From: Pseudeuparius sepicola
Lineage: Eukaryota > Arthropoda > Insecta > Coleoptera > Anthribidae
Direction: 5' to 3'
DNA length: 64,000 nucleotides
Assembly: GCA_963920635.1 (NCBI GenBank)
Contig: OY987298.1
Span: 130,519,735-130,583,734, forward strand
Below the pieces are notes generated by a model. The model searched no databases, was not told the origin of the DNA, and was given only the letters and a program-made list of their open reading frames with translations. Position 1 is the stretch's first letter; every line of letters begins with the position of its first letter. Of this stretch, positions 25,560 to 39,700 are shown piece after piece. The position numbers were made by a program, and so were the translations under genes.

Positions 25560-26670
25560 ATTGATATTTTTTAAATAGTGTCAATCTATTGTTATGAACG
25601 GTTTGCAATTTATTATTGATTAATATGGTTGAATTTACTCCTTTTTGGTCAATGACTTTAAATGGGCCAATATAAGGGCTGTCAAGTTTTTGTTGAAATC
25701 CTCTTTTTAACATGACTTAATCATTTATACGAATTTTGGATGGATTTATGTTTTTATCCCAATTAATTTTTGGTGCACTTTTTGACGAGTTAAGCAATTC
25801 TTGAACTCGGAGGTGAGCTTCTCTTAATTTAATTTTTAATTCCTTGGCGTAATTTTCTACGTCATAAATAGGGCTTGATTGATTGTATATATCGTTTGGT
25901 AAATTAGGAATTTTTTCAAAAACTAATTCGTATGGTGTGTAAGATAGACTTGTATGTGGAGTTGTGTTATAAGCAAAGATATAGTATGGTAAATATTCGT
26001 CCCAATTTGAGATGTTAGAGTGTGCGGTTAAATATTCATTAAAAACTCTATGGTTTCTTTCGATAGAACCTAAAGTTTCATGATGGAATGCTGTCGATTT
26101 TGAATGATTTATATGTAATGATTTATTAATGGAGTTTTGAAGTTCGTTTATAAATTCTGTACCTAGGTCGGTTTTAAGATTTTTCGGTATTCCAAATGTT
26201 AGCATGAAATTTTCAAATAGGGCTTTAGCTACAGATTTCGAATCTTTAGTTTTTAACGGTATGGCCTGTATAAATTTTGTTAAATCGCGGTTATCATTTT
26301 CTGTGATTCTTAAAGGTCCTACTGTATCTACCGAAATAGTTTCAAAGCTTGTCGAGGGTGTCTCTGTTATTACAAGTGGTTCTTTTGTGTGCCTAATAAT
26401 CTTACTTTTGTAACACGTTTCCCAATTTGAGATATATTTCTTTACCATTTTTGACATGTTTTTACAGACATATTTTTGTTTTAGTTTATTAACTGTTCGT
26501 TTTACACCGGTGTGTCCTCCTAGTAGGGAATCGTGATAGGTTTTTATGAGCTCATTTTGTTTTTGTTGTGATTCTATCCTTACTGGGGGTTCATATAGTA
26601 AAATTTTCAATTTTAGATTGGATTTTTTGTTTCTATAAATATTGTTATATATATTTTTTAAATTCTTCAA
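25560..26670 (-). pseudogene. Integrase region of minus-strand Gypsy element
   Basis: The zinc-binding part keeps both His residues (TYHDSLLGGHTGVKR), but the first Cys of the C-x2-C pair is Trp (NWETCYKSK), so zinc binding is probably lost. The three catalytic acids appear in the contexts ISVDTVGPL, KTDLGTEF and GSIERNHR. The segment between the first two looks shortened around NDNRDLTKF. An in-frame stop follows IRIND at 25717-25719. Downstream, in the same frame, a GPY/F-like module (SPYIGPFKVI) runs to about 25568. The intact enzyme would join element cDNA to chromosomal DNA. Confidence 0.85.
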
Positions 26671-26804
26671 TAGTTAAATAGAAAAATAATTTATCTTTCA
26701 TTGAAAGAGCTAGCTTATTGTGCTGTGTTATAAGTTTCTCCAAGACAAAACCTAAGTTATGAATTAGATTATCGCCTGATAACGTACATATACAATATTG
26801 TTTT

Positions 26805-27470
26805 TTAAAATCCCAATTTTATTTTCGTTGTCGTCAATGTCGTCAATGTCCTTCCTAATTGGTCTAAGATATCGTCAATTCTAGGTAATGGAAATTTGTC
26901 TGTCACAATTTTTTTGTTTAGTTGTCTATATTCAATTACAAGTCGAAATTTTTGCGTACCATCATTGCTTTTCTTTTTAACTAATAAAAGTGGTGAATTA
27001 TATTGGCTTACGGAAGGTTCAATAATTTCATTTTTTAATAAGTGAGATACCGGATTATTTATTTCTTGTTTTTGAGTGTGCGGCAGCCTGTAGTTTTTTA
27101 TGTAAGTTGGATTTTCGTCTGAAAGGGTAATTTTTTGTTTGTAAAAATTATTGGGTGTTAAAACGTCACCTTCTAGGTAAAATATATCATTAAAATTTGA
27201 ACAGATTTCTTGAATTGTCGCGTTCGTGTCGCTGTCTTCAGCTGAGAGTCGTATTTCGTTGAGTAATTTAGTTGATCTATTATTTGTACTTGTATTATTG
27301 TTCGCGTTCGCAGAGAGAATGCAAATCTCGTAATTTGAAATAGATTCTACTTGTAAGTGTAAGTTTGTCAAATCAATTTTTGCATCTTCGCACGTCGTAT
27401 TTATTATTTGAATGTGTGGTATGCCGTTTTTTGGAACTATCGCACTACCTAAAAATATGCCCTCTGCCAA
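26805..27470 (-). pseudogene. N-terminal reverse transcriptase fragment
   Basis: It encodes the pre-RT region and the first RT motifs: [20 protein letters not shown], then YRQLNKK and [14 protein letters not shown], as in the fingers of Gypsy reverse transcriptases. The reading then degenerates ([14 protein letters not shown]) and stops. The palm with its YxDD motif, the thumb and RNase H are missing before the integrase region, implying an internal deletion of well over 1 kb. No polymerase activity is possible. Confidence 0.85.
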
Positions 27471-27575
27471 TTGTTTGTTAAAAATTATACTGTCATCGGC
27501 AAACTGTTTATTTATAGGTTGTATTACTTGAGTTCGTGCCGGGATCGTAATTGTATTTATTTGTGGTAATTTTGT

Positions 27576-27990
27576 TTATATAGGAATTGTAATTGGATCT
27601 TTACTAGTATTTATGCTTAGAGTCCATGTGAGATAATCTATGAAACAAGCATAAGTTTTAATAAAACCTTTTCCTAGTATGCCGTCAGTTAGAATAGGAA
27701 AATCATTTCCAATTATGTGAAATTTTTGTGAAAAACTTTTGTTCTCAATTTTTAAATTTGTTGTAGTGGTGCCTAAAGTATTTATTTTGTGGTGTGTTAT
27801 TCCAACAATCTGACATTTTTCGTTAGGAAAGCAAGTTTGTGATTTAAATATTACTCCCAACTTTCACAAACTAACATCAGCGCCTGTATCTATTAAAAAG
27901 GTTGTTATTTTTCCAGTCAGCGCCTGTATCTATTAAAAAGGTTGTTATTTTTCCAGTCATATCACAAAATATTTCGACAAAATCGGTGGT
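27576..27990 (-). pseudogene. Aspartic protease region with duplicated active site
   Basis: On the minus strand a KITTFLIDTGAD stretch gives the retroviral-type DTGA catalytic motif of the Gag-Pol protease. A 40-bp tandem duplication (27878-27957) repeats exactly this stretch and shifts the frame. A stop follows shortly after DTGADVSL, and the remainder (FHIIGNDFPILTDGILGKGF) keeps the ILG-type flap and core region. The enzyme is inactive here. Confidence 0.75.
27878..27957 (-). repeat. 40-bp tandem duplication in the protease
   Basis: The plus-strand unit TCAGCGCCTGTATCTATTAA continuing to TTTTTCCAG occurs twice in direct succession with no visible difference. Forty bases is not a multiple of three, so the copy breaks the frame at the catalytic site. 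Confidence 0.9.
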
Positions 27991-28007
27991 ACATCCAGCA
28001 ATAAAAA

Positions 28008-29146
28008 TTAATTTAGGGCCAACTCCCCCACAGTGGACGACTGACTGTGTGAGAGTTGGTTCGTTCCGTTTCCCGAGGTTGTTTGAGCAATATTGATGTT
28101 CTGAAAATTTCCTCGGTAACCACGATATCCAAAATAACGTTGACCACGAACAAAATTTGAAGAACCTCTGTAGCTTTGTGTGTTTTGACTAAAACGACCA
28201 CGGGGGCCACGGTTCATGTTGAAATTGGAACCATTGCTACTATAACTATTATTATTTGTATTACTACTGTTTGCATAGAATCTCCCTCTACTATTGTTGC
28301 TACCTCGATAATGTCCTCTAAATGAGTATCTTCTGAGATTGTGTCCGCCTCTAGGATTCCTTTTGATATGGAAAACATTATTTTGCAATGCAGGATGGCT
28401 GTTTTTAAAGAAATTTCTGCATCTAACGCAATTTCTACAGGCTTCGCGAAATTGTCAATTCTGGAAGCTATGACAACAGATTTTATATATTTATTAAGAC
28501 CAGATTTAAAGGAATTGAGAGCCTGTTGATCATTCAAGTGAAGAATAGTTTTTCGCGCATTTTCATCTTCAGTAGTTATGCAAATCGCGTTCAGGTCGTT
28601 CACTAGAGATTCGATTTCTGAAGCAAAATTTGAAACTGTTTTTTCCGCTTGTCTGCAGTTTCCAAGTGCGTTTTGTATTGAAGCTAGCGTTCGTCTTTGT
28701 TTGAAACGATCTAATAAAATTGTTTTGAAATCTCCAATAGATTTTGTTGCAGAAATTATCGAGTTTTTAGCTTTTCCTTTTAATTTTCTTTTCAAAATAA
28801 AACTAAGTAGTAATGTTTTTTGAGCGTTATCCTTTAGAGAATCATTATAATATTCAACGGTGTCTACAAAATCGACAACTTTGTCTGTTTCACCATGAAA
28901 CTCTGGTATTAGTTGAGTAGCTATTTTGAGATCGAACTCCATAGTAGAATTATAAGAATCGAAATTGGAATCAGAATTGCTTAATTGTCTTTGACGTCTT
29001 TCCTCTAAAATCGTATAAATAGCTTCAAAATATTTATCTATTGATACACAGAATTATTTGGCTTCTGCCTTAAACTTAGGATCAAAATTACCTAAATTAA
29101 AGTTATTTCTAATCTCTACAAAATATTTTTTTCTTGAAATCGGCAT
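28008..29146 (-). pseudogene. gag of minus-strand Gypsy element
   Basis: The likely start is the ATG at 29144-29146 (MPISRKKYF). An in-frame TAA follows after about 30 codons, then the frame stays open through MEFDLKIATQLIPEFHGETD and the capsid-like helical region to about 28410. There a frameshift moves the reading to the frame ending at 28008. That C-terminal part is rich in Arg, Gly, Asn and Ser (RGxR and NSN repeats) and has no CCHC knuckle, as in several insect Gypsy Gags, where a basic tail binds RNA. Gag would build the particle; this copy is broken twice. Confidence 0.8.
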
Positions 29147-30337: not shown

Positions 30338-30423
30338 GTGTACTGAAATCAAATTAGGTAGTGCAAATATTACTAAGCCTTGCAACATCACTTGTGCAAT
30401 TATTCACCCCCTTATATTATACA
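30338..30423 (-). mobile_element. Short segment between the two Gypsy insertions
   Basis: These 86 bases separate the minus-strand element's right GTGT duplication from the plus-strand element's left TACA duplication (30420-30423). By position it should be the continuation of the Penelope-like relic at 39103-39700. Its short length gives no independent proof. Confidence 0.35.
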
Positions 30424-30836
30424 TGTTATATCCGACCTCAAGCATCACCTTGATCATAACCTTGTTTTTACCCTTGATTCTGTTTACTGTTGGATATTAT
30501 GTTCTCATTCTCTATTGTTCAAGATGCTTACTACACAGATATCATTTTCCATTGTATATTGTTCTAGAATGATTACTAGAACATATCATATTCCTTTTGA
30601 GTATTGTTAAAACTTGCTTACTGCAAGAATTGCAGAATTTGATCTTCCCTTTGTCTTTATATTCTTTTCCCATGAGAACCACAACACCTCAGCAGAACAG
30701 ATCTGTATAAATAGGACCTAGTAAAGTAAGAGTGTGAATTCTAGTCTTGTCTGTAGTCTAAGCCGAAACTCTGTAACTCGCGTTATTCAAATAAAAGTTT
30801 TTTAAAAAAGTCTTCGTCTTCACGTCGCCCGTAACA
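30424..30836 (+). repeat. 5' LTR
   Basis: Starts TGTTATATCCGACC and ends CACGTCGCCCGTAACA. By reading, it is the same as 38690-39102 at every position. It contains a TATA box (30706-30713) and AATAAA (30790-30795). Confidence 0.95.
30706..30713 (+). promoter_or_regulatory. TATA box of the LTR promoter
   Basis: TATAAATA precedes a plausible start region about 35-60 bases downstream (GTCTTGTCTGTAG). The same sequence in the 3' LTR could drive transcription into flanking DNA. Confidence 0.55.
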
Positions 30837-30839
30837 ATT

Positions 30840-30857
30840 TGGTGTCAGAAGTGGGAT
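30840..30857 (+). other. Primer-binding site, tRNA-Leu type
   Basis: TGGTGTCAGAAGTGGGAT lies 3 bases after the LTR and is complementary to the 3' end of eukaryotic tRNA-Leu (ATCCCACTTCTGACA plus CCA). It primes minus-strand cDNA synthesis. Confidence 0.85.
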
Positions 30858-30864
30858 CCTCGAT

Positions 30865-31003
30865 AAAAGGGTCTTCAACGAGGGAGATCCGGAGGCACTT
30901 AGAAGGACAGTCTCCTCGGGGGTCACCACACCACTACGATTGGAGCCAGCTGAAAAGGGTCTTCGACAGGAAGATCCGGAGGCACTAAGAAGGACAGTCT
31001 CCT
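30865..31003 (+). repeat. Direct repeat in the leader
   Basis: Two units of about 51 bp, 30865-30916 and 30953-31003, share AAAAGGGTCTTC, GATCCGGAGGCACT and AGAAGGACAGTCTCCT. They lie between the primer site and the env leader exon. Packaging or translational-control roles are possible but inferred. Confidence 0.85.
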
Positions 31004-31051
31004 GAGGCCAGCATCCAGCAACAACAGCAGCATCAACGACATCCAGCGAGC

Positions 31052-31068
31052 ATGAAGTTACTTCTATT
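31052..31068 (+). other. Candidate short leader exon for env with splice donor
   Basis: An ATG at 31052 opens a five-and-two-thirds-codon frame that ends at a strong splice donor (GTAAGT at 31069-31074). Spliced to the acceptor at 36768/36769, the phase matches the env reading frame and would give env an initiator Met and the start of a signal peptide. Env expression from spliced RNA is established for insect errantiviruses; this donor and acceptor pair is inferred from sequence. Confidence 0.65.
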
Positions 31069-31176
31069 GTAAGTGAAAAACTTGAAGTGAATTTTATTTG
31101 TGATTTTTTTTTGAACTTTCTACGTTGCTATTATTGAACTTTCTACGTTATAACGATATTACCTTTTCATTTCAAC

Positions 31177-32373
31177 ATGCCGAATAACGAAGCTATAAAC
31201 TCTAATGTAAACAATGAAGCAAACGCTTCAAATAACGACGAAGTACCATTTAAATTAAGCGAAATATTTTCTATCATCCCTGAATACGATGGGGATCAAA
31301 TCAATTTAAATACTTTTATCATTGCATGTGATAGGGCCATGCAAATGACTGTTGGCGACCAAGCCATTTTACTTGTTATAAAAATTAAAAATCAATTAAA
31401 GGGACGTGCAGCCCAACTCATTAATTCAAGAGATTTGAGTACCTGGCGCGAAATCAAACAATTACTTAACGTTCATTTCGGAGATCCTCGCGATCTAACT
31501 TCATTAATTCAAGATTTACAAAGAATGTGTCAATCCCAAAATGAAAATGCTTTGACTTTTGTAGGCAGAGTTCAAACTCACTGCTCGAAAATGTATGCCG
31601 CAATAGGAAAACAAAGCCTTCTCACTAGGGAACAAAAAGAATCGCAAGCTACATTAATCGATAGCATGTGTTTAAATACAGTTTTGACAGGTTTAGAACC
31701 AAGAATAGGGCAACTAATTCGTGCTAGCAATCCACCCAACATGATGGATGCTATAGCTTTAATTAAGAGAGAATTGCAACTTTCTTATTTTGAAAATCAA
31801 AAATTTCAGAGGCAAAATCGTGTACCAGTCTTCAATAATAATGTCAAAAGAACCAGTAATAATTTTCCAAAATTTTGTAATTATTGCAAAAGAAATGGAC
31901 ATACTATCAATGAATGTCGAACTAAAAATCAAAATAATTATTACAGAAATGGTCCAAATCCTTCTAGCTACTCTAACAATTTCCAAAATAACTCCCAAAG
32001 AAATAATTTCTCCCAAAATAGGTTCCATCAAAGACCATATTTTCCTCAGCAAAATAATTTTCAAACTCCTTCTTTCCAACCTAGGAATCACCCTCAAAAC
32101 TTCCAACCAAGAAATCAACCTCCTAGAAATTTTTCTAATAATATTCCTAGAAACAATTTCCCAAGAACTTTTAATAATAATTCAGGTCTCCAGCCTTCTA
32201 ATCAAAATTTTACTCCTAGATTCCCAAATTCAAATCCAATTAACCAAAATAGAACTCCCCAACAACATTATCTGGGCCAAAGCGAAAATTTTCAATTAAC
32301 AGCCTCGGACCAGAATCCTATTCCCAACTTCAAAAATCTTGGTATGACCAATACGGACCAAACGTTTGCATAA
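31177..32373 (+). CDS. gag: Gag polyprotein
   Basis: 398 residues. Gag assembles the intracellular particle and binds element RNA. An acidic and Asn-rich N terminus precedes a helical capsid region (about residues 25-215, with LSEIFSIIPEYDGDQINLNT near the start). A CCHC zinc knuckle follows (C234, C237, H242, C247; CNYCKRNGHTINEC). The long C-terminal tail is rich in Asn, Phe, Pro and Arg. The first ATG after the leader is used. The frame is intact. Pol is in the -1 frame and overlaps the last 30 codons. Length and layout are normal for Gypsy Gag, although env-bearing insect elements often lack the zinc knuckle. Confidence 0.95.
   Translation: MPNNEAINSNVNNEANASNNDEVPFKLSEIFSIIPEYDGDQINLNTFIIACDRAMQMTVGDQAILLVIKIKNQLKGRAAQLINSRDLSTWREIKQLLNVHFGDPRDLTSLIQDLQRMCQSQNENALTFVGRVQTHCSKMYAAIGKQSLLTREQKESQATLIDSMCLNTVLTGLEPRIGQLIRASNPPNMMDAIALIKRELQLSYFENQKFQRQNRVPVFNNNVKRTSNNFPKFCNYCKRNGHTINECRTKNQNNYYRNGPNPSSYSNNFQNNSQRNNFSQNRFHQRPYFPQQNNFQTPSFQPRNHPQNFQPRNQPPRNFSNNIPRNNFPRTFNNNSGLQPSNQNFTPRFPNSNPINQNRTPQQHYLGQSENFQLTASDQNPIPNFKNLGMTNTDQTFA
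32286..32292 (+). promoter_or_regulatory. Candidate -1 ribosomal frameshift site
   Basis: The heptamer A AAT TTT sits in the gag frame in the exact X XXY YYZ register. Slipping back one base enters a pol frame that stays open from here through the protease to 33413. It lies about 80 bases before the gag stop. A downstream stimulatory structure was not worked out. Confidence 0.65.
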
Positions 32374-33416
32374 ATACCGTTGACAATAGCAATCTATATT
32401 ATATTAAAGATAATACCGATAAGTACAAAATTTTAATTGACACAGGAGCTGGTATTTCAATTTTCAAACCAGAGACGGTTCAGCAATTTTTAAATCGATG
32501 TCCAGAAAATTTTCAAATTAAAGGTATTTCTGGCCAATCAATTCCTATTACTGAAGCGGTATTTGTTTCTTTTAAGGGTCCTCTTTCTCCCCATAAAGTT
32601 TATATTTGCGATCTAGATATAGGATTCGACGGAATTTTAGGCGCTGACTTTCTAGAAAGGTACGGTGCAATAGTAGATTTTAGGAATAAACAATTAATTA
32701 CGTACTATAAGGTACACGAATTACTTAAAGACGGAGATGAATTAAACGAGTTAACGAATAATAATGATAATAATAATCGAGTCGTTTATAAAAGACAAGT
32801 TAATGTCGACGAAAGATACGATAGCCTTCATATAAACGCTTATGAACGAAATAATAATAATAATAACGATTACACGGAAAATATAAATAATTTTGAAAGC
32901 GAAAATACGAGTTATAATATAAATCAGGTTACGATAGAACCGCGTTGCGAAAAAATATGCAAGTTTCATACGAATAAATATACGAATAAAGAAATGATTT
33001 TATGCGCACAACGAGTAGAAAAGGTATACGTGCCAAATGCTATAGTAAAAATAAACGAAGACGGTAATTTTTATACGACGATATTAAACGCTAATGCCAT
33101 AACAAAGGATATTTGTTTCGAAGAATTTGAATTTGAGCCTTACATTAAAGAAACGAACGCTAGTACTAATATTATTTGTAATTTTAATAAAACGAAAAGC
33201 AGAGTAGAAGAAATAAAAGAATCATTAAGGCTAGAACATTTAAACGAAGAAGAAAAAGAATTAATTACTAATTTATGCTTGAATTTTGAAGATATATTTT
33301 ACTTTGACGGAGATTTTTTAAGTTTTACTAATGAAATAAAACATACTATCGATACAGGCGACGCTAAGCCAATTTTTACTAAATCCTATCGATATCCACA
33401 AGTTCACAAGGAATAA
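32289..33416 (+). pseudogene. pol: Pol, N-terminal part: protease and pre-RT region, ending at a stop
   Basis: The -1 frame after the slippery site has no ATG near its start and would be made as a Gag-Pol fusion. It encodes a retroviral-type aspartic protease with the catalytic motif DTGAG (Asp codon at 32439) and a later ILGADF motif that closes the fold. An Asn-rich linker and the region preceding reverse transcriptase follow (IDTGDAKPIFTKSYRYP near the end). It stops at TAA 33414-33416. The next codon continues in the same frame directly into reverse transcriptase, so the stop is a point lesion, readthrough site or sequence error rather than a gene boundary. Confidence 0.85.
33414..33416 (+). 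other. In-frame stop codon splitting pol
   Basis: TAA interrupts a frame otherwise open from at least 32286 to 36746. The flanking sequence reads smoothly from the pre-RT region into the first RT motif, so a single substitution explains it. It is the only coding lesion I see in an element whose LTRs look identical. Confidence 0.9.
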
Positions 33417-36400
33417 GTAAAAACACAAATTAATAAAATGCTTTCTCAAGGAATAATTAGACCTTCTGTTTCACCATGGTCGTCCCCAGTATGGGTCGTT
33501 CCAAAAAAATTAGACGCTTCAGGCAAACAAAAATGGAGAATCGTAATTGATTATAGGAAATTAAATGAATTAACAGTTAATGACAGGTATCCACTGCCTA
33601 ATATTTCAGATATATTAGATCAGTTGGGTAATTGCCATTATTTTACTACTTTAGATTTGGCTTCTGGTTTTCAACAAATTGAAATGAATCCAGAAGACAT
33701 TTCGAAAACTGCTTTTTCCGTTGAAAATGGACATTTCGAATATTTACGTATGCCCTTTGGCCTTCGTAATGCGCCCTCAACCTTTCAGAGGGTTATGGAT
33801 AATATACTAATGGGGATACAAAACGAAAAGTGCTTAGTTTACATGGACGACATTATTATTTATTCTTCCACAATTAATGAACATATCTCTCGTATTACTG
33901 AAGTTTTTCAAAGATTAAGAAATTCAAATCTAAAAATACAGCCAGATAAGTGTGAATTCTTACGAAAAGAAGTAATTTATTTAGGACATGTTATTACACC
34001 TGAAGGGGTCAAACCAAATCCACAAAAAGTACAAGCTGTTATCGATTTTCCTCAACCTGCCAATACTAAACAAATTAAACAATTTTTGGGTCTTACTGGT
34101 TACTACAGGAAGTTTATTCCAAACTTCGCAAAAATGACAAAGCCTTTAACTCGACTTTTAAGAAAAGACGTACCATTTATTTTTGATAAAGATTGTCGTG
34201 AATCTTTCGAACAACTTAAAAATGCATTAATAACTTCACCAATTCTAATATATCCTAATTTTGAAAAGGAATTTGTTTTAACTACAGATGCAAGCGCTTT
34301 TGCTGTAGGCGCGGTACTTTCGCAAGGACCTGTTGGAAATGATCTTCCCATAGCATACTTTTCAAGAACCTTAAGTCCAGCAGAAATGAAATATAGCGTT
34401 ATAGAGAAAGAACTATTGGCAATAATTGCTGCCGTAAAAAACTATAGACCTTATCTTTTCGGACGAAAATTCTTATTGGTTACAGATCATAGACCTTTAA
34501 CCTGGCTTTTCTCAATAAAAGATCCCGGTAGTCGTTTAGCACGTTGGCGACTTAAATTAGAAGAATATAATTATCAAATAATTTATAAACCTGGAAAAAT
34601 TAATCGAAATGCCGACGCTTTATCTCGAATCAAAATCAATCATATAAAAGAAGCTGTTTCCTTTCATACTTCCCTAGACGAACCATCTACTTCCCATGAT
34701 AATCCTCAAGACATTGACCCGCCTATTGACAATAATGAGACTGACGAAATTGCTATAATCTGTAATGAATTTGACAGATTTTTTGATCTATACAAGACGA
34801 CTTCAATGATCGACTATTCTAAAATCCAATATACAAATAATCAACTTTTAGACAAAACACACAAGGACATTGTACTAATTTTTCAACAAGACAAATTAAC
34901 AGACCTTCACGAAAAAGTTATTGATGATTTACTTGAGCTAAATCCTGATTTTAACTATAATAAAGCAAATGTTCTTTCCAGTCAAACCGTAGCTAAAAGA
35001 AAATATTATATAATTCCTGTTCCTTTTAATTTTGAAACCGCAATACAAGTACTCTTCATATCTCTTTATTACAGTAAACATATATTCGAAGAAAATAAAA
35101 CTTATTACATTGAAAACAATCCAGATTTTCCAATTTTAGAAATGTTTAATTTTTTGTTCTCAGATAAAAATTTCCAACTAACAATTTGTCAGAACATTGT
35201 GACTATACCAGACGAAGACCAAATACCTATAATAATAGATCAATTTCATTCAGGCAAGACAAACTTACATCGAGGAATAAACGAAACAATTAGACGTATT
35301 AAACAAAAATATAATTGGACAGGACTAACTAAAGACGTTGAAACCTTTATTCGACAGTGCGAAATCTGCCAAAAGACAAAAATTTGTAGACAAAACTTGG
35401 ACAGTCCCTTAGTTATTACCGAAACTCCTAAAACTCCTTTCGAAAGAATAAATATCGACATCCTAGAAATCCCAGTAAAAAATAATATCCTTACCATAAG
35501 AGACGAACTAACAAAATTTACCCAAGCTTATGCACTTCCTAATAAAACAGCGAGATCTGTAGTAGACGCTCTTTTACTCTATTTTCAACATTTTGGAACT
35601 CCTTTAAGAATCCATTGCGATGTAGGTAAAGAATTTAATAATCAATTAATGAAAGATCTTTGTAAATTATACAATATAAAATTAACTTTCTCTAGTGTTA
35701 GTCATCCGCAATCAAATGGCTCCTTAGAAAGATTTCATGCCACCTTAACTGAAATGATACGCGCATGTAGTACAGAAAATCCTAACGAACACCCATTTCA
35801 AATGCTCCCTTACGCTTGTATAGCATATAACAATTCTATAAATAAAACACACGGCTTTACTCCTTACGAATTGCTATTCGGTCACACCTCGTCTCGACCT
35901 CCAGAAGTTTTGTATAATCAGCAAGAATTAATCTCTAAGTACGTTCGCGATTTAAACAATAAAATAAAGCATTATTATGAAGTGGCAAGAAAGCGTACGG
36001 ATATGCGCAAACAAAAGGCGAAACAGCGATTTGATACACACGTTTCGGAGCAGCGACAATTTCGCGTAGGAGAAAAGGTTTATGTCAAGGAGTCCCAAAT
36101 AAAAAATAAACTAGCTAACAAATTTAATGGACCCTATAAAATTAAAGAAATTTATACGAATTCAGCTTTGCTACATAACCCAATTACTAACCAAACTACA
36201 AAAATGAATTTTGATATGCTAAAGAAATGTCACGAATTACAGGAAGAAGAACTAACGGTTAAAGAATTCTTTTATACTCTAGATCGAAAAATCCCTATTG
36301 AAAATAATAACGTTTCCATTGAACTGGGCAACTTATTTGATGCCCCTGAAAATATTTCATTAGCTCACTGTGTATCTAAAGATTTAGAAATGAATGCAGG

Positions 36401-36749
36401 AATTGCAAAAGAATTTAAGAATAAATTTGGACACGTAGATGAACTAAAAAATCAAAATAAGTCAATTGGTGAAATAGCAGTACTTCAACTTCCGACAAGA
36501 AATATTTATTATTTAATAACTAAAGAATTTTTCTATTATAAACCAACTTATGCTAATTTATTTAATTGCTTGAAGGAATTACGAACAAATTGTCTCGAGA
36601 GCACTGATGAAAAAGATAAAATTATAGCTATACCCAAGTTAGCTTGTGGATTAGACAAATTAGATTGGGACACAGTTCTCCCTATGATCAAATATATTTT
36701 CAAAAATACTGATATTAAAATAATTTGTTATATCGAACCAAGTTCCTAA
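33417..36749 (+). CDS. pol: Pol: reverse transcriptase, RNase H, integrase and macrodomain
   Basis: Residues are counted from Met at 33438 (1,103 in all); the natural protein would be continuous with the protease. Reverse transcriptase: VIDYRKLN near 37-46 and the catalytic YMDD at 135-138. RNase H: TTDAS (D284) and TDHRPLTW (D350). A linker of about 200 residues follows. Integrase zinc domain: H604, H611, C641, C644. Catalytic triad D674, D728 and E764, the last two separated by exactly 35 residues; GPY motif at 898-900. A macrodomain then occupies about 958-1099 (separate entry). All polymerase, nuclease and integrase key residues are present. The end overlaps the env reading frame by 25 bases. 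Confidence 0.95.
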   Translation, partial: VKTQINKMLSQGIIRPSVSPWSSPVWVVPKKLDASGKQKWRIVIDYRKLNELTVNDRYPLPNISDILDQLGNCHYFTTLDLASGFQQIEMNPEDISKTAFSVENGHFEYLRMPFGLRNAPSTFQRVMDNILMGIQNEKCLVYMDDIIIYSSTINEHISRITEVFQRLRNSNLKIQPDKCEFLRKEVIYLGHVITPEGVKPNPQKVQAVIDFPQPANTKQIKQFLGLTGYYRKFIPNFAKMTKPLTRLLRKDVPFIFDKDCRESFEQLKNALITSPILIYPNFEKEFVLTTDASAFAVGAVLSQGPVGNDLPIAYFSRTLSPAEMKYSVIEKELLAIIAAVKNYRPYLFGRKFLLVTDHRPLTWLFSIKDPGSRLARWRLKLEEYNYQIIYKPGKINRNADALSRIKINHIKEAVSFHTSLDEPSTSHDNPQDIDPPIDNNETDEIAIICNEFDRFFDLYKTTSMIDYSKIQYTNNQLLDKTHKDIVLIFQQDKLTDLHEKVIDDLLELNPDFNYNKANVLSSQTVAKRKYYIIPVPFNFETAIQVLFISLYYSKHIFEENKTYYIENNPDFPILEMFNFLFSDKNFQLTICQNIVTIPDEDQIPIIIDQFHSGKTNLHRGINETIRRIKQKYNWTGLTKDVETFIRQCEICQKTKICRQNLDSPLVITETPKTPFERINIDILEIPVKNNILTIRDELTKFTQAYALPNKTARSVVDALLLYFQHFGTPLRIHCDVGKEFNNQLMKDLCKLYNIKLTFSSVSHPQSNGSLERFHATLTEMIRACSTENPNEHPFQMLPYACIAYNNSINKTHGFTPYELLFGHTSSRPPEVLYNQQELISKYVRDLNNKIKHYYEVARKRTDMRKQKAKQRFDTHVSEQRQFRVGEKVYVKESQIKNKLANKFNGPYKIKEIYTNSALLHNPITNQTTKMNFDMLKKCHELQEEELTVKEFFYTLDRKIPIENNNVSIELGNLFDAPENISLAHCVSKDLEMNAGIAKEFKNKFGHVDELKNQNKSIGEIAVLQLPTRNIYYLITKEFFYYKPTYANLFNCLKELRTNCLESTDEKDKIIAIPKLACGLDKLDWDTVLPMIKYIFKNTDIKIICYIEPSS
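36309..36746 (+). CDS. TARG1/OARD1-like macrodomain at the C terminus of pol
   Basis: Pol residues 958-1103, in frame after the integrase. It follows the TARG1 (OARD1, C6orf130) pattern closely: GNLFDAPENISLAHCVSKD, MNAGIAKEFKNKFG, the IGEIAVLQL strand, IYYLITK, KPTYANLFNCLKELR, IPKLACGLDKLDW and TDIKIICYI. TARG1 removes ADP-ribose from Glu/Asp of proteins, and from DNA, using a Lys (human K84) and an Asp (human D125). The matching residues here are K1029 and D1073, both kept. The GD of the first loop is GN. Activity is therefore plausible. A role against host PARP-type defence, or in acting on ADP-ribosylated chromatin at integration, is inference. The frame shows no decay. Confidence 0.85.
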
Positions 36750-38641
36750 TTCTGAAACTTCGTTACAGATTTTCTTTGTTCGCTACCGCTATGGCACAAT
36801 ATACACTGCGACCAATTAATAACACCATAGGCGTGTTCTATCAAGAGCAATCCGGACTCAAAATTTCTAATGACAAGTGGAGTTTATTGGTATATAAAGA
36901 CATTTCATCTCTAAAAACAACATTCGAAAATAATAATAAAATTTTAGAAAATATGCAATTTATAATTCAACCAAAAGACGTACGAATGGCCGCCTTTCTA
37001 AGCGAAGTTAAGTCACATCTCACTTTACTAAATCAACTTTCCGAAAACATTGCGCTCAAATTTGAAGAATTAGCTATTGATGTAAGAAGATATAAAAGAG
37101 GTTTAATTAATGGTTTAGGGTCAGTTTGGAAATTTATTACCGGAAATTTAGACGCTTCAGACGGACAGTATTATAACGATTGTATCGACAAAATTAACAG
37201 AGACGAACACGAATTAGAAAAATTAATGAAAAAACAAATTTTAGTAACTACTTCAGTTATCAAAAACTTTAACGACTCTATCAACAAATTACAAATTGAT
37301 GAAATTACTTTTAATAATGACATAAAACAAATCGAAAATTACATTTATAACATTTCTGATAATTTTAATTATTACACTGCAAAATTACAAGTTTTAGAGA
37401 TGGCCGAAAGACTCCTAGAATCCTATACCTTTATCGAAAGCAATTTAAATGACATTCTAAACTCTATTACTTTTGCAAAGTTACATATCATTCACACGTC
37501 AGTTATAACTCCTGAAGACCTGGTTCATCATTTGCAAATAATCGCTCAAACTTTAAACAAAAATAATTTGCCCTTAACTCCTCAACTTCTAAATGTTGCA
37601 ACTTATCTTGATTTTATAGAACTAAAGGTTTTTCAAACAGAAAATAGACTTGTTTTTATATTAGACATTCCTTTAGTAGAACCTCAATGGTATACTCTTT
37701 ATAGAATTTATCCTATTCCAATTTTCGACAATAAAACTGGATTTTATCACATGGTATCCACTGATACTAAATTTGTAGCAAAAAGCGATGACCCAACTCT
37801 CTATGTAATTCTCTATGATATAAAAAACTGTAAAGAACTAGCATTTGATTTAATAATGTGCAAAGATTTATATCCTACTCCTATTGACTCACATTCAAGA
37901 TGTGAAGCTCAATTATTAGAGGTAAAAACCCATTTACCTAATACTTGTGACATAGTCACAATTTCAATTGAAAGTTACAATGTACAATTGATTCAAGAGA
38001 ATCAATGGTTAATAATTTTAAGTGAAATATTTCCTATAACTATTAAGTGCAAAAATCAAAATCCTTTGACTATAATGCTAGACAAAACTTCAATTTTAAC
38101 GTTAAAATCTGAATGCATTGCTTATATTGGAAGTACTAAAATTCAAACGAAAAATTTAAATAAATCTAATCAAACCTATAAATTTCACCCAATTAATATA
38201 CCATTTGAATGTTGCAAAGAAACTCCAAATAAACTAAAATATCCTGACTTAAAACCTTTACAACTAAATAAATTTAATTATGACGATTTAAATGTCGCAA
38301 AGCATAAATTAGACGAATATGCAAAGGATCTTGATAATATTATTAACGAACCAACTGTAAATAAGTATACGCCAATATTGACATATCTATCCATTGCTTT
38401 AATCATACTTTTAATTATTGTGTACTTTTATTTTAAATGTAAAAAGTCTAGGAACATTAAAATAGGCATTATTACTACTAATAACGGAGACGATCCTCCA
38501 CAACCTCCTAGAACACGAAATCGCGTTTTTCAAAATTTAAGAAAATTTGTTACTGTCAAAAGAAGACCTTCGTATAGATTGGACGAACCTCGCGAAGAAG
38601 AAGAAATTGAACTAAATTCTAATACTAAAACATATGCCTAA
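36725..38641 (+). CDS. env: Env-like fusion glycoprotein of the baculovirus F / errantivirus type
   Basis: 638 codons from the first in-frame ATG; the mature N terminus is likely near residue 24, after a signal-peptide-like stretch (FSLFATAMA). A furin-type site RRYKR at residues 121-125 is followed by a Gly-rich hydrophobic segment (GLINGLGSVWKFITG), placed as the fusion peptide is in insect Env/F proteins. Long helical repeats come next (about 140-230), then a Cys-bearing ectodomain. A transmembrane helix lies near 550-572 (LSIALIILLIIVYFYF), with a 65-residue basic and acidic cytoplasmic tail. Translation probably uses a spliced message with the acceptor at 36768/36769. The frame is intact. 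Membrane fusion is inferred from family resemblance. Confidence 0.85.
   Translation: MLYRTKFLILKLRYRFSLFATAMAQYTLRPINNTIGVFYQEQSGLKISNDKWSLLVYKDISSLKTTFENNNKILENMQFIIQPKDVRMAAFLSEVKSHLTLLNQLSENIALKFEELAIDVRRYKRGLINGLGSVWKFITGNLDASDGQYYNDCIDKINRDEHELEKLMKKQILVTTSVIKNFNDSINKLQIDEITFNNDIKQIENYIYNISDNFNYYTAKLQVLEMAERLLESYTFIESNLNDILNSITFAKLHIIHTSVITPEDLVHHLQIIAQTLNKNNLPLTPQLLNVATYLDFIELKVFQTENRLVFILDIPLVEPQWYTLYRIYPIPIFDNKTGFYHMVSTDTKFVAKSDDPTLYVILYDIKNCKELAFDLIMCKDLYPTPIDSHSRCEAQLLEVKTHLPNTCDIVTISIESYNVQLIQENQWLIILSEIFPITIKCKNQNPLTIMLDKTSILTLKSECIAYIGSTKIQTKNLNKSNQTYKFHPINIPFECCKETPNKLKYPDLKPLQLNKFNYDDLNVAKHKLDEYAKDLDNIINEPTVNKYTPILTYLSIALIILLIIVYFYFKCKKSRNIKIGIITTNNGDDPPQPPRTRNRVFQNLRKFVTVKRRPSYRLDEPREEEEIELNSNTKTYA
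36759..36768 (+). other. Candidate env splice acceptor
   Basis: TTCGTTACAG immediately downstream of the pol stop. Joining at 36768/36769 keeps the env frame when paired with the donor at 31068/31069. The upstream tract is only moderately pyrimidine-rich. Confidence 0.55.
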
Positions 38642-38678
38642 TTTAATGTCAAAATTTGTTAACACAAATTTTTAATAT

Positions 38679-38689
38679 AAGGGGGAAGG
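38679..38689 (+). other. Polypurine tract
   Basis: AAGGGGGAAGG directly abuts the 3' LTR at 38690 and would prime plus-strand synthesis. Confidence 0.9.
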
Positions 38690-39102
38690 TGTTATATCCG
38701 ACCTCAAGCATCACCTTGATCATAACCTTGTTTTTACCCTTGATTCTGTTTACTGTTGGATATTATGTTCTCATTCTCTATTGTTCAAGATGCTTACTAC
38801 ACAGATATCATTTTCCATTGTATATTGTTCTAGAATGATTACTAGAACATATCATATTCCTTTTGAGTATTGTTAAAACTTGCTTACTGCAAGAATTGCA
38901 GAATTTGATCTTCCCTTTGTCTTTATATTCTTTTCCCATGAGAACCACAACACCTCAGCAGAACAGATCTGTATAAATAGGACCTAGTAAAGTAAGAGTG
39001 TGAATTCTAGTCTTGTCTGTAGTCTAAGCCGAAACTCTGTAACTCGCGTTATTCAAATAAAAGTTTTTTAAAAAAGTCTTCGTCTTCACGTCGCCCGTAA
39101 CA
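38690..39102 (+). repeat. 3' LTR
   Basis: 413 bp, same sequence as 30424-30836 by reading. The target duplication TACA follows at 39103-39106. AATAAA in the same position as in the 5' LTR would serve polyadenylation. Confidence 0.95.
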
Positions 39103-39700
39103 TACATACTAATGTAAATCATCTCACTATGTACGTTTATAGTAATGTTGTTTTTACCTAAGATTTTTACATTTTCAAAAACGAAATTATGATGTTCGGG
39201 AAAGTGATGCTGAGTTAGGGCAGTCTTTTCTGTTATGTTTTTTTTTTAATTCTCGGCAATCGTACTTGTGTTGATATACACGTTGTTTAAGATATTGTTT
39301 AGTGATTCCGATGTAACACTGGTAAAAATCTTTACAATTGGTCCGATCAAATATGACGGTTGAATAAACTACATTTGACTTTAAGATGAGTGGTGTTTTG
39401 TCTTTTAGAGTTGTCGGACAGAATATAATATGTAAATTTGAAGTAAATGGGTTTATTTTTAGTAGTATCTTCCTTATTGACACATTTTGTTTGCTCGTTT
39501 TGATATATTCTGTTGATTAGGTTTGTAGGATACCTAGTTATTCAATTTCAGAGCAGATTTTATATAAAGAATAATTGCGAACTGCTAAAAGCTGTCGATC
39601 TATATGTATTAAATTTGTGATGCCTATTTTTTTGGACTTCTGAATGGTTTGACAAATAATGCAACACTTTCCCCGAATTCGTATAGGTCTATTATATCAG
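39103..39700 (-). mobile_element. Penelope-like element coding relic (right part)
   Basis: The minus strand carries the end of a Penelope-like polyprotein, including the GIY-YIG endonuclease region (39187-39483). The frameshifted continuation (SQHHFPEHHNFVFENVKIL) runs up to the Gypsy insertion at 39102. The relic therefore predates both LTR insertions. Confidence 0.6.
39187..39483 (-). pseudogene. GIY-YIG endonuclease domain of a Penelope-like element
   Basis: The frame contains LILKSNVVYSTVIF followed by FYQCYIGITKQYLKQRVYQH and KHNRK, matching the linker and GIY-YIG core of Penelope-like retroelements (normally VVYxIxC ... YIGxTxxxLxxRxxxH). In these elements the domain nicks target DNA. 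The first Tyr motif is altered (VYS) and the Cys before it is missing. A frameshift near 39200 separates this piece from the downstream HHNFVFENVKIL motif. No reverse transcriptase was recognised further upstream. Confidence 0.6.

Follow-up and report, generated by a model that had tools for sequence, protein, structure and literature searches.

Macrodomain in the Pol protein of a Gypsy element

The 64,000-nt stretch of the Pseudeuparius sepicola genome analyzed here (contig OY987298.1; hereafter the window, with positions counted from its first letter) contains a long terminal repeat (LTR) element at 30424–39102, and the Pol protein encoded inside this element carries a TARG1/OARD1-type macrodomain as its last domain. 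The element is a Ty3/Gypsy element with env (errantivirus-like), in which LTRs, a primer binding site, a polypurine tract, and a short target duplication are all present (Table 1). The Pol order of protease, reverse transcriptase (RT), RNase H, and integrase is confirmed, with the protease recognized by its motif only, and a baculovirus F-like env sits downstream of pol.

An earlier sequence-only reading of this locus had proposed that the macrodomain is fused in frame to the integrase. Indeed, the open reading frame (ORF) at 33438–36749 (+) extends from RT across RNase H and integrase and into the macrodomain with no stop. The same reading had taken the ATG at 33438 as the start of pol, which did not hold, since the pol frame starts further upstream, at the protease. 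The residue numbers of that reading, which are kept here, count from an internal Met because an in-frame stop precedes this ATG. The domain matches Pfam Macro (E 8.1e-6, 26.2 bits; cut-off 22) and human OARD1/TARG1 over residues 6–141 (E 7.8e-37), as had been proposed, and its matches in the PDB set at E <= 0.001 are OARD1/C6orf130 chains only (five distinct sequences). It scores 139.9 bits with a profile built from viral and stand-alone TARG1-like proteins, compared with 7.3 for the best of 500 residue shuffles. Its fold is closest to TARG1 (138 residues, root-mean-square deviation 1.2 Å, 46% identity). The predicted catalytic residues K1029 and D1073 were found where they had been placed, and both are invariant in all 11 rows of the alignment, six of which are from Gypsy elements. 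We take their counterparts in human TARG1 to be K84 and D125.

The fusion is family-wide rather than private to the window. In the 769-Mb genome, the search for the macrodomain gave 907 candidate places; the 150 that were scored, picked by the macrodomain itself, all have 99–100% identity, and an internal stop occurs in one of them. A second pick by integrase DNA (35400–36000) gave 492 candidates, and the best 40, which include the window's place, all score about 100% identity. A macrodomain is present in all 40: in 36 at the expected offset (compared by hand; one is off by one base), and in the remaining four, which were fetched, at 98–99% DNA identity (one with three gap positions). Among 40 other, macrodomain-picked copies (20 from the rows at 100% and 20 from the bottom of the 150-row list), the 146 macrodomain codons and the 41-codon linker are ungapped in every copy. 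The explanation that the fusion is a one-off chimera or an assembly join is thus refuted for this assembly by both sets of copies.

Table 1. Features of the macrodomain-bearing Gypsy element in the window.
Feature	Position	Strand	Remarks
5' LTR	30424..30836	+	413 bp; no difference from 3' LTR
Target duplication TACA	30420-30423 and 39103-39106		4 bp, on both flanks
Primer binding site TGGTGTCAGAAGTGGGATCC	30840..30859	+	presumably tRNA-Leu type
gag ORF	31177..32373	+	398 aa; Retrotrans_gag E 0.0049, below cut-off
Protease motif ILIDTGAG	32430..32453	+	pol frame, -1 relative to gag; spotted by eye
In-frame stop, single	33414..33416	+	RT of the window copy, just before ATG 33438
Reverse transcriptase RVT_1	33501..33995	+	Pfam
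RNase H (RT_RNaseH)	34257..34568	+	Pfam
RNase H-integrase spacer, predicted decayed TARG1-like macrodomain	34812..35195	+	
Integrase H2C2 zinc domain and rve core	35214..35708	+	Pfam
Integrase C-terminal GPY module and macrodomain linker	36126..36308	+	
TARG1/OARD1-type macrodomain	36309..36746	+	K1029 = 36522-36524, D1073 = 36654-36656
env ORF, Baculo_F type	36725..38641	+	E 2.4e-39; overlaps pol end
Polypurine tract AAGGGGGAAGG	38679..38689	+	
3' LTR	38690..39102	+	413 bp

Distribution of macrodomains among Gypsy elements

Relatives were taken as the best 120 Pol proteins of 6056 matches. The nearest 28 among the matches listed (P0012–P0039; 65–71% identity) end 0–22 residues past the aligned integrase C-terminus, and the macrodomain hidden Markov model (HMM) has no match in them. 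In a 43-row tree of RT and integrase, the window element lies inside a group of macrodomain-less relatives (P0012, P0013, P0017, and P0025; 100/98). The named relatives are from Harmonia axyridis, Diabrotica virgifera, Anthonomus grandis, a Wolbachia record of Psylliodes, and the distant Cordylochernes; Harmonia, Diabrotica, Anthonomus, and Psylliodes are beetles, which makes a beetle host likely.

The macrodomain HMM is positive in eight of the best 120 relatives, of which P0089 and P0108 score clearly lower, and the catalytic pair is retained in six of the eight (P0046, P0095, P0106, P0122, P0123, and P0093). Five further Gypsy macrodomains were found directly (P0007 from Harmonia axyridis and P0008–P0011). 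TARG1-type domains thus occupy three Pol positions in Gypsy elements: between RNase H and integrase (P0007–P0011, P0046, P0095, P0106, P0122, and P0123), between protease and RT (P0093), and at the integrase C-terminus, which is seen in the window family only. Comparison of P0123 with its macrodomain-less sister P0124 (100/100) places the insertion directly after the RNase H end. The extra macrodomain requires six state changes on the 43-row tree. In approximately unbiased (AU) tests, neither a clade of the window with the five 'extra' macrodomains (p 0.133) nor the union of all 12 Gypsy macrodomains of that set in one clade (p 0.41) was rejected, so the six changes may include exchange between elements. 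The window-family macrodomain forms a group with P0007 and P0003, a beetle protein (87/82 in one tree, 98/85 in another).

A cellular ancestry of the Pol macrodomain is plausible. A host OARD1 was not found with query P0002 (841 candidates) or P0003 (1841 candidates); element copies fill the 150 scored places, and absence of the host gene is not shown by this result. P0003 itself (Molorchus minor) is an OARD1-like beetle protein model that is broken by a segment with a weak match to a reverse-transcriptase zinc domain.

The search with P0002, from which 150 candidates were scored and 19 listed places fetched, revealed two or more additional lineages of macrodomain among the Gypsy elements of the same genome. 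In family B (L133–L137, L143, L144, L146, and L150), the macrodomain precedes an RT that is 39–47% identical to that of the window in eight of nine members; L144 has no RT within 3 kb. In L137, gag, protease, macrodomain, and RVT_1 share one ORF (scanned in three pieces). In family C (L138–L140), the macrodomain precedes an RT 76–78% identical to the window's in L138 and L140, and RNase H and integrase pieces 74–75% identical in L139. The active-site region of L138 is altered, with Ser for Gly after GC and Arg for Gly before IA. In family D (L141, L142, L145, and L147), the 3 kb to each side of the macrodomain contain no match to RT, RNase H, or integrase. The adjoining ORFs of L145, the only member scanned with Pfam, correspond to a Ty3-type protease (weak, below the cut-off), the macrodomain, and a Baculo_F/Gypsy env, and those of L142 and L147 resemble them by eye, such that an env-like ORF lies beside the macrodomain in three of four members. 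L141 has no env ORF of at least 90 residues, and its macrodomain contains a stop. Family D appears to have arisen by deletion, as its macrodomain and that of L139 are closely related (100/99). L148, L149, and L151 are members of the window family (A). The macrodomains of A, B, and C/D form separate groups, and their deep branching is weak.

A predicted relic between RNase H and integrase

Pfam has no match in the spacer between RNase H and integrase (34812–35195). A model of this spacer, built from an alignment with two intact macrodomain rows (P0106 and P0122) and decayed relatives, has a macrodomain fold; the ranking of TARG1 comes from VIA-align on Foldseek's top 1000 chains only. Foldseek itself places designed hydrolases first (E 8e-4), followed by Poa1p (0.025) and viral macrodomains (about 0.03). 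The direct profile match between the spacer and TARG1 is weak (E 0.0056), and via intermediates it reaches E 5e-6, with a score of 42.2 versus 22.7 for the best of 60 column shuffles. Profile matches of TARG1 to 20 'mid' spacers (E 0.52) and to 58 'rest' spacers (0.06), and of these two sets to each other (0.18), are weak or not significant. The catalytic pair is missing in all 20 'mid' rows; the window spacer was read by eye only. The spacer is predicted from these model and profile results to be a decayed TARG1-like macrodomain.

One tentative scenario, to which we give somewhat less than even odds, is that the handling of ADP-ribose is a core trait that recurs throughout a large Gypsy clade: a TARG1 macrodomain would have entered the RNase H–integrase junction in the common ancestor, stayed catalytic in some members, persisted in most as a relic with a structural or binding role, and been re-acquired several times at other Pol positions, including that of the window. 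If true, animal retroelements would be in long-standing conflict with host ADP-ribosylation, and the Pol of many Gypsy elements would contain a hidden domain. The relic, if it holds, would be more surprising than the fusion and would name a Pol region that is blank in Pfam.

These positions bear on whether the macrodomain serves as a reader or tether that binds ADP-ribose on chromatin or DNA breaks and thereby steers the integrase, much as chromodomains steer integrase in chromoviruses. The integrase C-terminus is where the domain lies in the window family, and the persistence of the older domain beside the integrase, often without the catalytic pair, would fit a binding or structural role. 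However, the domain precedes RT in other families, it is retained in one family where no integrase was detected close by, and most fresh captures retain the catalytic Lys and Asp, beyond what binding alone should need. Tethering is unlikely, and the suggestion of the sequence-only reading that the integrase carries the macrodomain to the integration site receives no support here, with related domains lying ahead of RT or at the RNase H–integrase junction. The occurrence of the domain elsewhere in Pol, and in one family with no integrase found nearby, favors a hydrolase acting in trans over a tether on the integrase.

Selection on the macrodomain

Rates of nonsynonymous (dN) and synonymous (dS) change were estimated by the Nei–Gojobori method (NG86) for 14 pairs of macrodomains, using copies picked by protein similarity, which lowers dN. 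Seven pairs at dS 0.08–0.31 have dN/dS of 0.06–0.23. These are pairs within C/D (L139–L145 and L139–L142, 0.15 each; L139–L147, 0.21; L142–L145, 0.23, from six synonymous and six other changes), two family B pairs (L133–L136, 0.14; L133–L135, 0.19), and the window with L149 (0.06). Among three saturated pairs, two have dN/dS of 0.11–0.14 and one has no value. When the 40 macrodomain-picked copies are compared with the window copy, pN/pS is 0.31 for the macrodomain (19 nonsynonymous and 15 synonymous distinct changes), a value biased by the picking; in the same copies it is 0.19 for integrase (35 and 49), 0.28 for the linker (5 and 4), and, for the spacer together with RNase H, 0.38 (38 and 25). 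As judged from these sequence comparisons, the macrodomains of the window family and two other lineages show signs of purifying selection.

These patterns make it highly improbable that the domain is a neutral passenger, captured by chance without function and spread as a successful element multiplied in a burst. The copies sampled are young and near-identical, such that intactness in the window family alone proves little, and the lowering of dN by the choice of copies would also suit a passenger. Against this stand the recurrent capture, the retained catalytic residues, and the low dN/dS among diverged copies of three lineages.

Proposed function

The Pol tail is probably a TARG1-type mono-ADP-ribosyl hydrolase that was recently taken up by a Gypsy element as its last Pol domain and that may counter ADP-ribosylation-based restriction or silencing; we assign this reading a probability of roughly 60%. 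A hydrolase acting in trans against ADP-ribosylation appears to be the most likely role. The macrodomain would be synthesized along with Pol (in the family lacking RT and integrase, along with Gag-protease) and would be present in particles or close by. It may then act on element or host proteins, releasing ADP-ribose from Glu/Asp, and possibly on nucleic-acid ends, which would relieve the restriction or silencing. The older capture at the RNase H–integrase junction would have decayed in most of the clade, with fresh captures, including that of the window, arising later.

TARG1 acts on ADP-ribosylated DNA, and a housekeeping role similar to that of dUTPase can be envisaged, in which ADP-ribose adducts are cleaned off cDNA ends or Pol during reverse transcription or end repair. 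The varied Pol positions are in line with those that dUTPase reportedly takes in LTR elements and retroviruses (PMC6431247). However, the family without RT and integrase keeps the domain (dN/dS 0.15–0.21 relative to L139), although action in trans on the cDNA of other elements is possible. Such a role seems quite improbable.

Two animal systems make a selective pressure from ADP-ribosylation plausible. Mobile elements are for the most part up-regulated in flies null for parp-1 (5/8 significant cases), possibly indirectly (PMC7712786), and mono-ADP-ribosylation of KAP1 by SIRT6 leads to L1 silencing in mammals (PMC4695847).

Several points weigh against a hydrolase that counters restriction. 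Its activity is a prediction from the sequence. Four young pairs (dS <= 0.05) have dN/dS of 0.50, 0.73, 0.55, and 0.30, and the low dN/dS of the window family hangs on one diverged pair. L140, a protease–RT copy, has Gly at the catalytic Asp position. The enzyme may be dispensable, because the older domain persisted after losing its catalytic residues. Ten further parp-1 null cases, nine of them of the gypsy superfamily, are not significant by false discovery rate, and this applies to most gypsy-superfamily cases of that study (PMC7712786); the sources cited here do not establish PARP-based restriction of insect retroelements. Chikungunya virus with catalytic and compensatory macrodomain mutations reportedly replicated normally in mosquito cells; the same mutants had mixed effects in mosquitoes, and ADP-ribose binding seemed more important (PMC12632316).

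Comparison with known systems

In fold and in the catalytic Lys and Asp, the domain is like cellular TARG1/OARD1/C6orf130 (4j5r and 4j5s). The solved human TARG1 chains are single-domain constructs of about 146–160 residues, whereas that of the window is the last domain of Pol. Macrodomains are known in RNA viruses that counter PARPs in vertebrates, and those of alphaviruses and coronaviruses are comparable as virus-encoded ADP-ribose hydrolases. dUTPase is a nucleotide enzyme, unlike the macrodomain, and its fold is unrelated. The two are alike as accessory enzyme domains at varied positions in LTR elements and retroviruses (PMC6431247; rotifers, PMC5408684).

Among the matches listed in a literature search, none described a Ty3/Gypsy element that carries a macrodomain. 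The earlier statement that no such LTR element was known must nevertheless be qualified, since fish epsilon-like endogenous retroviruses (ERVs) are reported to carry ORFs for macrodomain proteins occasionally (Basta et al., 2009, cited in PMC4977317). Both are retroelements with a macrodomain gene; however, the fish ERVs are vertebrate retroviruses with additional ORFs (PMC4977317), whereas the window element is Ty3/Gypsy with a Pol-fused domain of TARG1 type. Uptake of a host modifying enzyme by a retrotransposon is likewise seen in the capture of DNA methyltransferase (DNMT; PMC5890265) and of an m6A demethylase-like 2-oxoglutarate-dependent dioxygenase (2-ODD) domain by an orchid Gypsy element (PMC9289625). 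These cases involve different enzymes and hosts, and the orchid domain is an additional ORF (PMC5890265, PMC9289625). Macrodomains in retroelements and captured modifying enzymes are therefore already known, and the TARG1–Gypsy Pol fusion is a new variant. Its presence in several lineages and the signs of selection point to ADP-ribosylation as a defense against, or regulator of, invertebrate retroelements, for which the Pol-fused TARG1 domain offers a defined protein for testing.

Other observations

TARG1-like macrodomains are present in many IMG/VR viral contigs. With the window domain alone as the query, no macrodomain-bearing retroelement was found in these contigs; with an alignment as the query, 107 relatives were obtained and 80 kept (L001–L080), none of which has a tblastn match to the RT, integrase, or env queries.

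Elsewhere in the window, tblastn detected no second macrodomain of the fresh type. At 25717–28942 (−) lie the remains of a second Gypsy element, in which no macrodomain was found and which has gag-like and integrase zinc-domain ORFs. The window copy of the macrodomain-bearing element carries the stop in its RT (Table 1) despite identical LTRs, and at many other genome places an open frame of about 1498 residues surrounds the macrodomain.

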